36,001 nucleotides of DNA, taken from NCBI GenBank assembly GCA_004124475.1, contig SCKK01000038.1, forward strand, positions 1 to 36,001. Direction: 5' to 3'. Positions within the stretch are counted from its first letter, which is position 1, and every line of letters starts with the position of its first letter. Below, in pieces: positions 6,385 to 18,215 of this stretch. The notes below the pieces were generated by a model. That model saw only the letters and a list, made by a program, of their open reading frames with translations, did not search any database and was not told where the DNA came from. This stretch comes from Fidelibacterota bacterium. Its GTDB lineage: Bacteria; Fidelibacterota; Marinisomatia; Marinisomatales; SCKK01. Both the position numbers and the translations under genes were made by a program.

Positions 6385-6393
6385 TTCTCACAT

Positions 6394-6485
6394 TGTAGGA
6401 CAAGATGGCATCTTGTCCCTCTTCCCTCCACTCAACTCATCATATACCCTTTTCATAATAAGGCAAGATAACATCTTACCTTACA
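6394..6485. repeat. REP unit, copy A (two palindromes), downstream of RAYT remnant
   Basis: A 92-base unit that recurs at 7170-7261 with about six mismatches. It starts TGTAGG and ends CTTACCTTACA. It contains two palindromes: GGACAAGAT-GGC-ATCTTGTCC (6398-6418, perfect nine-base arms) and GGCAAGAT-AAC-ATCTTACC (6462-6480, with one mismatch that is a wobble pair on the minus strand). This two-palindrome layout is that of bacterial REP/BIME elements, and the transposase-like gene between the two copies is the enzyme type expected to mobilise them. Confidence 0.8.
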
Positions 6486-6502: not shown

Positions 6503-7150
6503 TTATTGTAAAATATCATTTCGCACATATGTCCATTTCCAATTATTCCATTCCTTAACAAGTCCAGCATGGACTGGATTACTAAGAATATAGGAGACCA
6601 CTCTTTCAAAATCATCGTAGTCACGTATGTAATGGTCATAGCTTTCATGAACCCAAAAATCACCATGTCTACATAAAATCTTGTTTCCCTCTCGTGCGGT
6701 ATGCCTTTTTAGCGAATGCATTATCATTGATAGTGAGTGGCAATCGTCATTCTTTTGCAAGGGTTTTAACAGGATGTGGACATGATTTGACATGATGCAG
6801 TAACAATAGAGTTCCTATACCTTTCCATCCCTGTAATGCAAAGCTTCCTCAACGATTTCTGCTATTTTTTGGTTCCTCAGCCAAAAATGTCTTGTTGATT
6901 TTCTGTCAAGATAGGCATCAACCTTCTCAAAATACTTTATCTTTAGTTCCCATAATTTATCAGCAATAATATTCTTGCCTTTAATGTTACTGAACTTTCG
7001 TTTGTGATTTTCATATTCCTGTTGAAGATTTTCCAGAACACTCTTGGGAATGCTTCCCGAAAGCCTGAACGTAACAAAAATAATTGATCCCTTGGGTTGG
7101 ATATGCGGGAGTTTCCTTTTATAAGAAAGTTTATACTCCAGATTACTCAT
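6503..7150 (-). pseudogene. REP-associated tyrosine transposase (RAYT, Y1/IS200-like), split by an in-frame TAG
   Basis: Two open segments in the same frame join into one protein of about 215 residues. The first (6815-7150) gives YKRKLPHIQPKG then SIIFVTFRLSGSIP, the usual start of REP-associated Y1 transposases. It ends LHYRDGKV followed by TAG at 6815-6817. The same frame continues ELYCYCIMSNHVHILLKP, containing the HUH metal-binding motif (HVH), and later HESYDHYIRDYDDF with the presumed catalytic Tyr, ending at 6503. Family members read roughly DGKRYEL at the break, so a point change to TAG is the simplest explanation. The gene lies between two direct REP units. It is probably inactive unless the amber codon is suppressed. 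Confidence 0.8.
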
Positions 7151-7169: not shown

Positions 7170-7261
7170 TGTAGGACAAGATGTTATCTTGTCCCTCTTC
7201 CCTCTACTCAACGCATCATCTACCCTTTTCATAATAAAGCAAGATAACATCTTACCTTACA
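7170..7261. repeat. REP unit, copy B (two palindromes), upstream of RAYT remnant
   Basis: Direct copy of the unit at 6394-6485: 92 bases, same orientation. Its palindromes are GGACAAGAT-GTT-ATCTTGTCC (7174-7194) and AGCAAGAT-AAC-ATCTTACC near 7238-7256. It lies between the RAYT remnant and the carA stop codon, so it may also act as the 3' end structure of carA. Having both copies in the same orientation around the transposase suggests the whole 0.87-kb block moved or was assembled as a cassette. Confidence 0.8.
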
Positions 7262-11928: not shown

Positions 11929-12979
11929 TTACTTCAGCAGAATCATCTTCTTGGTCGCACTGAAGTCGCCAGCATCGATCCTGTAGAGATAGACACCGGT
12001 GCTTACAGACTGACCAAGTTCGTTTCGTCCATCCCAAGTCACAGTATGTTGCCCTGCCCGACGATGTTCATTTACCAGCGAGGTAACCTTTTGTCCCAGC
12101 AGGTTGTATATCACCAACGGTCACATCGTTATCAGTGGGAAGGTCGAAGGGGAACGTTGTGACCGGGTTGAAGGGATTCGGGAAGTTCTGACGAAGAGCA
12201 AAAGCCTCCGGAACGATCCTAGCCTCTTCATCGATAGCAACGCCAACCGCCCCAAACCATTCCATCATGTTTCTCAGGAACGCACCATTCGGCTCAGCCC
12301 AATTATCTGTGGTATCCGTTGTCATCTGATACCACCCAATGGGGTCGGCTGCAAGAAAAACCACTTTGCCACCTCCTGTAGCCGAGAAATCGCGTCGGAC
12401 GCCAACAACATTGGATGTGACAGGGGTGCCAGCCGTATCAGCTAAACCTACCCCCGTAATGATAGGTATCGCATCTTCAGCATGCTCAATCCGGTCTGAA
12501 TAGTTGGTGTATCCGAGTAACCCTGTAGGATCGAAGATCATGTCCGTAAAGATAGCGTCCCCTGTTATGGGGTCATTTGCCACACCGTTCATCATGGTAT
12601 CTGCCACGTCATTGAAGACCTTTGTGACACCCATCACCTGGTTGAAGAAGGACCAGTCAGGAATATCAACGGCGGCATCAAAGGAATAATAGGCTCCCAG
12701 GTAGTCTTGAGCCAATATTCCCAAATTCCCACCATTTGCCACAAAGTCCGTCAGCAAGTTTACTTCCGCGCTATCATTACCGATACCAAGTGTAGCAAAA
12801 GCACCGCCATTCCATATTAACGTTGAAATATTCTGCATGGCCTCTGCACTGGGCAATAAGCCAATTGATCCCACATCCCACAGGAAGTACTCATATTCGC
12901 CCTCAAGTGAATTCCCAACATAATCGGTTAGCCAGAATAAATCGAATATCCCTTTCACCAACACAGTTTTCTCTTTCGA
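11929..12979 (-). pseudogene. Secreted protein with C-terminal sorting (T9SS type A-like) domain, 5'-truncated and frameshifted
   Basis: The main frame (stop at 12980, first GTG at 12964) starts directly in domain sequence (TVLVKGIFDLFWLTDYVGN) with no signal peptide, so the 5' end is missing. About 230 residues follow that resemble a domain also found in the subtilisin at 14820-18215 (NGGNLGILAQDYLGAYYS against SGGNLYISGQDLGWDINE). Then comes the linker RQNFPNPFNPVTTFPFDLP. Near 12115-12125 the frame is lost by one base. The next frame continues VIYNLLGQKVTSLVNEHR ... GVYLYRIDAGDFSATKKMILLK, a complete C-terminal sorting domain. The protein would be exported and attached or released at the surface. 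Base 12979 is the limit of the open frame. Confidence 0.75.
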
Positions 12980-14618: not shown

Positions 14619-14774
14619 AATGATCGGTCGAGAAGTTAAACAATTATTTCTAAAAAAGAAAAAAGGTGGCGTCCGTTAGCTGATGTATGGAATCTTTAAC
14701 TTTAATCTGGAAACCTGGTTTTGAAAGTATTCCCCTATTTTTTTCATTTTAACACGATTAATTTCTTCGTTTTT

Positions 14775-14799
14775 TGTAGGATAAGCTGCCAGCTTGTCC
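14775..14799. repeat. REP palindrome downstream of the subtilisin stop codon
   Basis: TGTAGG followed by GGATAAGCT-GCC-AGCTTGTCC (14779-14799; one G-T pair in nine-base arms), the same outer sequence as the REP units at 6394 and 7170. It lies 20 bases past the stop codon of the protease gene and 57 bases from a second REP palindrome that is inside that gene, repeating the paired layout of the other units. Confidence 0.7.
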
Positions 14800-14819
14800 A
14801 TCTTTCCCAAACTACTTTT

Positions 14820-17800
14820 TCATTTCAGTACTATGAGTTTTTTGGTGTCTGCATAGGACAAGATACCATCTTGTCTTACAACCAATCTATAAAAGTAAAC
14901 TCCACTTGCCATATCAGAGGCATTCCACACTACTTCATGGGTACCACTTACCACTCTACCACTCACTAATTCCGCTACTTCCCTGCCAAGAATATCGTAG
15001 ATCACCAATTCCAAATTCCCAGCTTCAGGTAAACCAAACCGGACGGTGGTAACAGGGTTGAATGGGTTTGGATAATTCTGTTCTAATGAATATCCTTCCG
15101 GTATAATATCTAAATATTCCTCCGTTGAAATAATTAATGTGGTATCTACCATGAGATAAAGATCATCTAAAAACCACCCTACATACGTTTTATTTTCGTC
15201 CGATGTCATCCTGAATCTGAGCCAAAGACCCGATTCAGCTATATAAGGGGTAAGATCAATAACTTCTTCCCTCTCCACACGAATCCCGGTAATAGAAGAA
15301 ACTATCGTCCATTCAATTCCATCGGTAGACAGTTCCACCAAACCAAAATCTTTGTCTGCCTCCAACACTGATTTGTGCCAGAAGAGAAGGTAAGCAGATT
15401 CGTAATAAGAAATATTCATCGGTTCTATTAGTGACAAAACGTTGTTGGCATTATTTTCATAGAATCCTTCCGGAGAATCGTTCATGACACGTCCATGACC
15501 TCCAACATTAACAAACCCCCAGCCATCCCCGATGTCCCAGCCGGATACATCCTCTGCTTCCCAATTGCCTACAGCTAATTCTTTAGTAATTGTAAAGAAA
15601 TTGGGGTCAGACTCCGCCATGTTTTGCTGGCTTGAACTGTCTGTTGCAATCACACTGAAGGTAATAGTAGTGTACCATTGTACATCTGCCCAACTGATTT
15701 CCCCTGTCCAGACATCAACCCCATCAAAACTCATGGGAACTGTAATTACTGCACTGCCTGTGTCACTGGAGATTGAATATTCAAGAACCACATTCCCAAC
15801 CCCGATATTGTCCACCACTTCAGCGGCTATTTCAACCGAGTTTGTGGTACCAAACTGATCCTCCAATTCAGTAACAAATTCAATCACAGGAGACACTGTA
15901 TCCGCTCCGGCATAAAAACTGTAAACATTTTGTGGTGCCCCCACCGGACTTGCCCACGAATAGTAACTATGAACCGTCTCGATGTAGTAGTCGATTCCGG
16001 AAGAAACTCCAACTGCCGGAATAGTCCCTGTATAATCTCCACCACCTGAACCTGCCATCAAACTACCCACGAAGTCATCCATTAATTCTGTTTTGAAGTA
16101 TAGGGTCACACTTTCAAGATCAGTGCTATCCCCGGAAACATGAATGGTAATTTCATAGTCAATATCGATCACCTCGGTATCGGTAAGGGGTTCATGTTGG
16201 ATGAAGTTCAAGTAGGTAAGTATCCGTTTTAGAGCGGTACGTTGCACGTCATTGATATCTTCAGGAGGAACAGAATTATTGTCACTCCCAAACGCTTCCA
16301 ATCCAACACCGGTATACACAAGTCGATAGTCACCTTCGTACCTGAGACCCATCCCGAGGCCATTGTCATACTGAAAAACAAGGTGAGCTGTACCATCTGG
16401 TGTAAACCAGTCAGGATATTGACTACTACCCCCAATTCCGGGCTGATAGACAGGAAAGCTTAATTTATCTCCAATGGGATCATTGTTAATTCCTATCACT
16501 TCCATGGTGCCCGCATGATCCCCACCCCATTGAGCATGTAAATAATCGGCGTAGAAGTTTTGGTGAAAACTGAAACCCGGATTCTCATTGATATCCCATC
16601 CGAGGTCCTGTCCTGAAATATAAAGATTGCCCCCACTGTCCAGATACTCCTTCAAAGCGACAATATCCAGAGAATCGAGGCTGGGGAAATCCCACTCGGT
16701 AAACCAGATCACAATGGGGAAACTTTTAAGGGCTGCAGGGCCTGGGGAACGCAAGCTGGCATGATCCCAAACACCACAGATGAGACCTTCCTCATCCAAA
16801 ATACCTGTGTAGAATCCACTCGCTTCCGTATCCCCGCAACACGATTCATTATCATCTTTAACAATAAGAATTGGCATTTTACCTACAATGATAGATAGAG
16901 TGTCCGTGTCTTGCATTTCACCATCCACAAAAAGAGTGAGAGCAACTTTCGCCATGTGTGGCTCAGCGCTCCCCGATATGGAGAAATTCATTTCATTCTC
17001 AATTGTATGTATAGTATCAGAAGGGAAACTGTAAGTGACAGATATACCGTTTATGATAGTTAAATCAGGATCCTCAGTGGTAAGCGTGACATAATAACTA
17101 TCTGCACCGCCCAATGAATAATTTCTGGATGTAACAGAAAAATGAACTTGTTCTCCCACATCTAAAACACCATCACCGTTTCCTGCAACGGAATCTGTGA
17201 TTCCACTCCCGAGGAATCGTACTGCAGGTGGAATGGAGACAAATTGGGCATCATCATAAGTGAGGGCTTGGCTGGCATTGATCCGACCACTTCCTAACAA
17301 CCCTGCATAGTTCTGATTTAGGTTATCGATATTATCAGTGGTTCCAGCTACTCGAAGAGCTATTTCCTTGTTTGTGAGGTCCGGATAGAATGATTTCACC
17401 AAGGCAGCAAGACCGGCTGTAATGGGAGACGACATGGATGTACCTGAGAGTGCGCCATATTCTCCATCGGGCAAGGTAGACAGTATGCTCTCTCCCGGAG
17501 CAGCCACGTCGATCAGGATGCCAAAACTGCTGAAACTGGCTCTTACGTCATTGCTGCCTGTGGCGGCGACGGCAAAGACCTTTTCGTACGCCGCCGGATA
17601 GAGAAAAGCATCTGAATTTGAGTTTCCGGCTGACGTTACCAGCAGAGCGCCAAGGCCTGTGATGTATTCAATGACATCTCTTTCGAATTCGGAGAAGCCG
17701 CTGCCGCCCCAGCTCGCATTAATAACATCTGCACCCATCTCAGCAGCATACACAATGCCACTGTATCCAAAGTTTACGAGATCTCCCAGATCGTCATAAC

Positions 17801-18215
17801 TCACCTTAACCGGGAGTGTTCGCACATTCCACGCCACTCCGGCGACACCGGTTTCGTTGTTTGTGACGGCGTTTGCCAGTCCGGCCACATGAGTTCCATG
17901 AATCACCCCCGGACCATGGGTAGGATCGTTATCGGGTTGAGGTCCGGCTGCACTGCTGGGACCAGCAAAGTCCCAACCGCTGATATCATTCACATATCCG
18001 TTCCCGTCGTCATCAATTCCCTCCTCACCATTAAATTCGACCTCATTAACAAAATAGTTCACTTCCAGATCAGGATGATCCATATCCATGCCGGTATCCA
18101 CAATACCAATTAATATTATGGAATCTCCATGAGAAATATCCCACGCAGCAGCAGCCTCAATTATTGCCAGATGACCCTGATTGTCATATTGGGGATCATC
18201 AGGAATTTCACTCAT
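14820..18215 (-). CDS. Subtilisin-like (S8) secreted protease with sorting domain, main part
   Basis: 1131 residues from the ATG at 18215, which is not the true start: the frame continues upstream (PQVLYAEPNFIRK) and joins the propeptide at 18229-18573 through a one-base frameshift. The catalytic triad is complete: Asp40 (IVDTGMDMDHPDL), His106 (HGTHVAG) and Ser260 (SGTSMSSP), with the oxyanion Asn198 in TSAGNS. An all-beta region follows. A domain at about 455-690 has SGGNLYISGQDLG and is shared with the gene at 11929-12979. Further beta domains precede the C-terminal sorting domain (QNYPNPFNPVTTVRFGLP ... LVIYDILGREVAELV ... KKLIVLK). Residues of about 1112-1120 (RQDGILS) are encoded by a REP palindrome. 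It probably acts outside the cell on protein substrates. Confidence 0.92.
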   Translation of the reverse strand: MSEIPDDPQYDNQGHLAIIEAAAAWDISHGDSIILIGIVDTGMDMDHPDLEVNYFVNEVEFNGEEGIDDDGNGYVNDISGWDFAGPSSAAGPQPDNDPTHGPGVIHGTHVAGLANAVTNNETGVAGVAWNVRTLPVKVSYDDLGDLVNFGYSGIVYAAEMGADVINASWGGSGFSEFERDVIEYITGLGALLVTSAGNSNSDAFLYPAAYEKVFAVAATGSNDVRASFSSFGILIDVAAPGESILSTLPDGEYGALSGTSMSSPITAGLAALVKSFYPDLTNKEIALRVAGTTDNIDNLNQNYAGLLGSGRINASQALTYDDAQFVSIPPAVRFLGSGITDSVAGNGDGVLDVGEQVHFSVTSRNYSLGGADSYYVTLTTEDPDLTIINGISVTYSFPSDTIHTIENEMNFSISGSAEPHMAKVALTLFVDGEMQDTDTLSIIVGKMPILIVKDDNESCCGDTEASGFYTGILDEEGLICGVWDHASLRSPGPAALKSFPIVIWFTEWDFPSLDSLDIVALKEYLDSGGNLYISGQDLGWDINENPGFSFHQNFYADYLHAQWGGDHAGTMEVIGINNDPIGDKLSFPVYQPGIGGSSQYPDWFTPDGTAHLVFQYDNGLGMGLRYEGDYRLVYTGVGLEAFGSDNNSVPPEDINDVQRTALKRILTYLNFIQHEPLTDTEVIDIDYEITIHVSGDSTDLESVTLYFKTELMDDFVGSLMAGSGGGDYTGTIPAVGVSSGIDYYIETVHSYYSWASPVGAPQNVYSFYAGADTVSPVIEFVTELEDQFGTTNSVEIAAEVVDNIGVGNVVLEYSISSDTGSAVITVPMSFDGVDVWTGEISWADVQWYTTITFSVIATDSSSQQNMAESDPNFFTITKELAVGNWEAEDVSGWDIGDGWGFVNVGGHGRVMNDSPEGFYENNANNVLSLIEPMNISYYESAYLLFWHKSVLEADKDFGLVELSTDGIEWTIVSSITGIRVEREEVIDLTPYIAESGLWLRFRMTSDENKTYVGWFLDDLYLMVDTTLIISTEEYLDIIPEGYSLEQNYPNPFNPVTTVRFGLPEAGNLELVIYDILGREVAELVSGRVVSGTHEVVWNASDMASGVYFYRLVVRQDGILSYADTKKLIVLK
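14854..14880. repeat. REP palindrome inside the subtilisin gene
   Basis: GGACAAGAT-ACC-ATCTTGTCT at 14856-14876, flanked by TGTA on the coding-strand side. On the coding strand, TGTAAGACAAGATGG and the following TATCTTGTCC match the REP unit at 6394 at all but two positions. It is translated as VRQDGILSY, just before the final TKKLIVLK of the sorting domain. Confidence 0.75.

Follow-up and report, generated by a model that had tools for sequence, protein, structure and literature searches.

In-frame REP palindromes at a single codon position in the type IX sorting domains of two bacterial lineages

The protease gene and the RAYT locus

The DNA analysed here (the window, the whole stretch of 36,001 nt) contains a RAYT-like gene between two BIMEs and, at another site, a protease gene with a REP palindrome in its 3' end. 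The features are as follows:

6393..6485, strand not given: BIME (REP and inverted REP) next to the RAYT gene, from which the matching REP comes
6503..7150, minus strand: RAYT-like gene with IS200-type HUH motif SNHVHILL and HESYDH, with one in-frame stop codon
7169..7261, strand not given: second copy of the BIME (94% identity) at the opposite flank of the RAYT gene
14744..14770, minus strand: non-coding remnant of another sorting-domain end (TKKLIVLK and stop, written with different codons), not in frame with its REP
14776..14799, strand not given: second REP-like palindrome GTAGGATAAGCTGCCAGCTTGTCC, 20-45 nt 3' of the protease stop
14820..14846, minus strand: native end of the sorting domain, TKKLIVLK and stop
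14820..18215, minus strand: subtilase (Peptidase_S8) whose C-terminus is a sorting domain of type IX (Por_Secre_tail, residues 1048-1112+), from a Pfam scan
14850..14882, minus strand: in-gene REP palindrome, codons V-RQDGILSY-A, at the predicted tip of the last beta-hairpin

The Pfam scan assigned the body of the protease to Peptidase_S8 and its C-terminal domain to Por_Secre_tail (PF18962, 30.6 bits against a curated cutoff of 27). Matches of the sorting domain to folds in the PDB were weak, among them PorZ (5m11, E 0.0095). The CDS (14820-18215, minus strand) ends with the residues YFYRLVVRQDGILSYADTKKLIVLK, which are followed by the stop codon. The codons for RQDGILSY (14853-14876, minus strand) lie within the near-perfect palindrome GTAAGACAAGATGGTATCTTGTCCTA, composed of arm, loop and arm. 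The initial annotation had proposed that the codons for VRQDGILSY represent the REP found beside the RAYT gene. This is borne out by the 23-nt core, which agrees with each of the RAYT-flanking REPs at 6395-6417 and 7171-7193 in 21 of 23 positions (two mismatches each). A chance resemblance was ruled out, since 100 dinucleotide shuffles of the window gave no match. A search of Rfam gave no match.

The in-gene REP of the window folds into an 8-bp stem with a 3-nt loop, and the copy at locus L318 into a 13-bp stem. The RAYT-flanking copies have the GTAG foot, as do many copies of the second genome described below (G150), while the in-gene copy of the window has GTAA / ATAG. The second palindrome and the relic tail downstream of the protease stop had been overlooked in the initial annotation. 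The second palindrome and the in-gene REP form a head-to-head pair like the RAYT-flanking BIMEs, and the same set of spacer, second REP and second tail was found at an unrelated locus of the sister species (L255). Another sorting-domain gene of the window (11941-12964) is apparently frameshifted near its end: its profile match (11941-12120) is out of frame with the ORF at 12068-12964.

The RAYT gene (6503-7150) sits between two BIMEs of 93 nt, and the match of the in-gene REP flanks it directly. Between carA and an ABC transporter gene, the window's genome (G000) has the arrangement carA-BIME-RAYT-BIME; in the sister species (G001, contig C192, locus L138) one BIME only is present at this place. 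The difference can be due either to an insertion or to a deletion between the direct BIME copies. It is only an indirect sign of REP mobilisation by the RAYT, which is inferred.

At the protein level, an AlphaFold2 model (pLDDT 87.6) predicts two final long strands, 63-73 and 76-87, joined at Asp74-Gly75, and places RQDGILSY at the tip of the last beta-hairpin. The tip reads A-GDF-VET in ordinary domains and A-VGQDGILSY-xET in REP domains. The suggestion that the REP alters a hairpin near the extreme C-terminus is supported; the terminal hairpin is longer and a tip of 3-4 residues has been replaced. Ten protease homologues with a visible C-terminus (L220-L227, L229 and L231), which belong to other families and lack the REP, have ordinary tails such as YRLETSRSVKTRKLLLLK or YRLATDSYTKTRKMVLLK, and their spacing from YRL to T(R/K)K is about 7 residues, compared to 12 in the window protease. 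RQDGILSY in homologues without the REP would have refuted the REP origin of these residues; since all ten end in ordinary tails, this refutation failed. The protease of the sister species could not be included, because its contig stops within the sorting domain and the tail is unreadable. The exact REP was found in only two of 150 related genomes, both of the window's genus.

The same codon site in other sorting domains

A pattern search allowing up to two mismatches revealed 17 REP loci in G000, four of them in sorting-domain genes. These four REPs occupy the same codon site in the same frame and on the same strand of otherwise different proteins, namely the window protease, L001 (RQDGILSYKETKK), L023 (KQDDISSYVETKK) and L026 (RQNGILSYMETKK). 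If the copies had landed independently and at random, the probability of four at the same site would be about 6e-10, but they are probably not all independent. According to a profile search, the genome harbours about 74 sorting domains. In the comparison of their C-termini, proposed in the initial annotation, the other tails read (about 70) lack the REP tip and are of the ordinary RL-QAGDFVQ-TRK type. A search for REP-derived peptides had also been proposed: a degenerate pattern for RQDGILSY matched sorting domains only in the window's genus. In the sister species, the ortholog of L023 carries a mutated REP copy. Both the REP and the sorting-domain counts rest on pattern and profile searches.

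Several other arrangements were seen in this genus. Non-coding relics of REP-bearing tails are present in the window (14740-14800) and at L114, and in the sister species at L255 and L256. At the L001/L256 locus the hairpins differ between the two species, with the highly frequent palindrome TCCCGAATCTTCGGGA in place of the core ATCTTGT. Abundant in the genus is a second palindrome, TCCCGAANNTTCGGGA (L114, L255 and L256; about 19 sites in the loci examined), which is found nested in REP copies of sorting-domain tails; L255 additionally harbours the nested palindrome CCTGCCCGCC..GGCAGGCGGG. At L021 (G000, C50:30224) a REP is located at the junction of prfA- and prmC-like genes, and its foot is the TAG stop of the first.

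When GTDB genomes were scanned with the L001 domain, one unexpected match was obtained, L286 with QDGILSYKETKK; it belongs to a MAG (G150) that bears the label Bacteroidetes bacterium FW602_bin.19. In the DNA of this genome, too, the tip codons of L286 correspond to the REP. We found about 24 REP places in G150, at least 18 of them within sorting domains, which number at least 148 in total. The exact 27-mer GTAGGACAAGATGGCATCTTGTCCTAC is present in nine sorting-domain genes, and at least 20 sampled genes of this kind carry the REP or a derivative (VGQDGILSY, decayed or composite forms) at the same site. The sample was enriched for REP copies, and the counts apply to the sampled domains only. 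Two relatives, G152 and G171, have one REP-bearing sorting domain each. According to BLAST, the REP-bearing proteins have for the most part unrelated bodies. A common composite in-frame tip, VGQVQGTPSGDGILSY, is shared by L369, L371 and L372 of G150; here another palindrome-like stretch is nested in one arm of the REP. At L323/L408 (contig C568 of G150) a REP lies about 25 nt 3' of the stop of a sorting-domain gene with an ordinary tip.

G150 also has an intact homologous RAYT ORF with 55% and 39% identity to the two parts of the RAYT gene of the window. The REPs beside it have the GTAG-GGACAA foot as in the window and a different stem; generally, stems differ between the REP families (GATG/CATC, AGCTG, ACTTG) while this foot is constant. 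Since the RAYT of the window contains a stop codon and that of G150 is flanked by a REP with a different stem, an enzyme for the G150 copies was not seen.

Taken together, the same palindrome is present at the same codon site, in the same frame and orientation and with sharp boundaries, in genes with mostly unrelated bodies in G000 and G150. The initial claim that the REP has spread into genes is too weak, as nearly all in-gene copies found here are at one site of one domain.

Origin of the in-frame palindromes

Several REP acquisitions took place in G150. Concerning INDEPENDENCE and precision, a tree of 65 G150 domains, made with the hairpin left out, shows the REP label dispersed as though by chance. 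Parsimony required 17 label changes (mean of shuffled labels 17.2), at least six of which are forced by well supported branches, and a single clade of the REP bearers was rejected (p-AU 0.00014). About 70 columns underlie the domain trees, and the label could also be dispersed by recombination between sorting domains. In 12 clean G150 copies, synonymous differences amount to 5.5% in the REP codons, 48% upstream and 57% downstream. Identity among the copies drops at the REP ends, with the step one base beyond GTAG and beyond CTAC. Directly before the REP, GCT is the Ala codon in nine of 11 cases, in contrast to three of 33 ordinary domains (p=1.5e-5), the next base after the REP is A in 20 of 21 copies, and the orientation is identical in 19 of 19 readable copies. 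The preferred GCT before GTAG fits cutting by a RAYT at CT, although it is no proof. We also considered GCAG as a target, since ordinary tips have the Ala-Gly codons GCA GGN, which are similar to GTAG and in phase with it. This is no more than a conjecture: the REP copies are mostly preceded by GCT and not by GCA.

An empty site without REP was not seen. The net gain at the tip is five codons in G000 and six in G150, and not the nine codons of the REP, so the event looks like a tip replacement rather than a clean insertion. We cannot account for such a replacement by transposition alone.

For the window's genus the situation is different. The four G000 domains and the G001 ortholog are compatible with a single clade (p-AU 0.85), and therefore repeated acquisition is not shown there; a single insertion with subsequent spread of the domain is equally possible. 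The synonymous contrast between REP and flank is weaker in G000 than in G150 but present (p=1e-4, pooled over non-independent pairs). This leads to the strongest competing explanation, that there was only one old insertion, that the 3' end with hairpin and TKKLxVLK was passed on by duplication, gene conversion or domain shuffling, and that conversion from REP to REP kept the core uniform. The REP domains of G000 and G001, for which one clade was not rejected, share V before the REP and TKKL(I/V)VLK after it. The relics mentioned above, of which that at L255 has the same spacer as the window, would be displaced 3' ends of this kind, and a single event would account for the replacement of the same three to four codons every time. 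However, one clade was rejected in G150. There, identical REPs stand between flanks that have diverged almost to the degree seen among other domains, and the REP ends mark the boundary. We regard a single origin as rather unlikely, though it cannot be dismissed.

Could the REP family have arisen as sorting-domain DNA, from the hairpin codons, and have been adopted by a RAYT later? Most G150 copies found are indeed in sorting domains and few outside. But the variable stem and the constant GTAG-GGACAA foot are as expected for a RAYT-led REP, and both the scattered positions of the domains and the decay seen in some copies resemble insertions into domains, which makes this order of events very improbable. 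Even less tenable is protein-level selection, by which GQDGILSY would be a good beta-hairpin reached independently, with the palindrome as a by-product: the peptide is plausible as a hairpin in the AlphaFold2 model, and an unrelated G000 tail (L099) has VRKDGATKFHQARK at the same place without palindrome, but this convergence is rejected by the codon data, with synonymous sites nearly fixed within the REP and free outside, and is at odds with the same palindrome in the non-coding BIMEs beside the RAYT and with the ten homologues that lack RQDGILSY.

We therefore consider it probable that type IX sorting domains took up a RAYT-linked GTAG REP more than once, precisely and in frame, at a single site, with the reservation that for the window's genus one insertion with later spread is just as possible. 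A GTAG-type REP of a RAYT (TnpA-REP) system would enter the 3' ends of genes for type IX secreted proteins. By inference, it would be placed by RAYT activity on single-stranded DNA, with a cut beside a CT or CA dinucleotide and the GTAG foot; the activity of a RAYT on the in-gene REP is likewise inferred. The REP may be tolerated because its stop-free frame, V(G/R)QDGILSY, would provide two short strands and an Asp-Gly turn, which lengthen the terminal hairpin. For the window's genus, it is possible that a single insertion was later carried along with the sorting domain.

Relation to known elements and meaning

REPs are regarded as extragenic elements, which normally lie between genes. GTAG-tagged, RAYT-linked REPs inside ORFs were described by Di Nocera et al. 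2013 (PMC3733652); they are read in frame, also at C-termini, and their GTAG can supply a TAG stop. In that survey the intragenic REPs were found in varied unrelated proteins and mostly at differing sites, with the exception of recB, in which two Xanthomonas species share the site, and no GTAG REPs are listed for the two lineages found here (PMC3733652). The palindromes described here are also RAYT-linked and in frame, but they occupy one codon site of one domain in many different proteins of two lineages. An extragenic majority and many copies per genome, as expected of a GTAG-type REP, were not observed: G000 has 17 loci, four of them in sorting-domain genes, and the G150 copies seen are mostly intragenic.

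Rickettsia palindromic elements (RPE) are similar in being in-frame palindromes within protein genes. However, they are found in diverse proteins, and REPs of the RPE type have a CGTC foot and no RAYT (PMC3733652); here the foot is GTAG/GTAA and a RAYT is present. In REPtrons, a RAYT gene is flanked by REP and inverted REP, as in the window, and TnpA-REP cleaves single-stranded REP DNA at a CT or CA adjacent to the hairpin, for which GTAG serves as the guide (PMC8266576). Unlike in these systems, the RAYT of the window is interrupted and the mobile step is inferred. The known Por_Secre_tail domain (PF18962, TIGR04183) is the same domain that carries the REP; here a REP encodes the tip of its last hairpin, which has gained 5-6 residues. 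Our search for literature on type IX domains with a palindromic insertion gave nothing relevant. REPs in genes are thus already known, while a report of recurrence at one codon site of one secretion domain in two lineages was found nowhere.

The combination of one palindrome, one preferred, codon-precise site and a domain that each genome encodes about 60-150 times offers a natural series of acquisitions of different ages, from which the insertion mechanism could be read. Further, in unrelated proteins an element of the mobile type forms the end of a secretion signal, so that one could test if the longer hairpin is tolerated or used by type IX secretion. It is tempting to speculate, and quite possible if not yet probable, that the hairpin tip of the sorting domain is a recurrent landing site of RAYT-driven REP in single-stranded 3' gene ends, used at one codon position and in a fixed orientation, and that this arose separately in two lineages or more. 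If this is true, a DNA hairpin would become a protein hairpin in dozens of secreted proteins.
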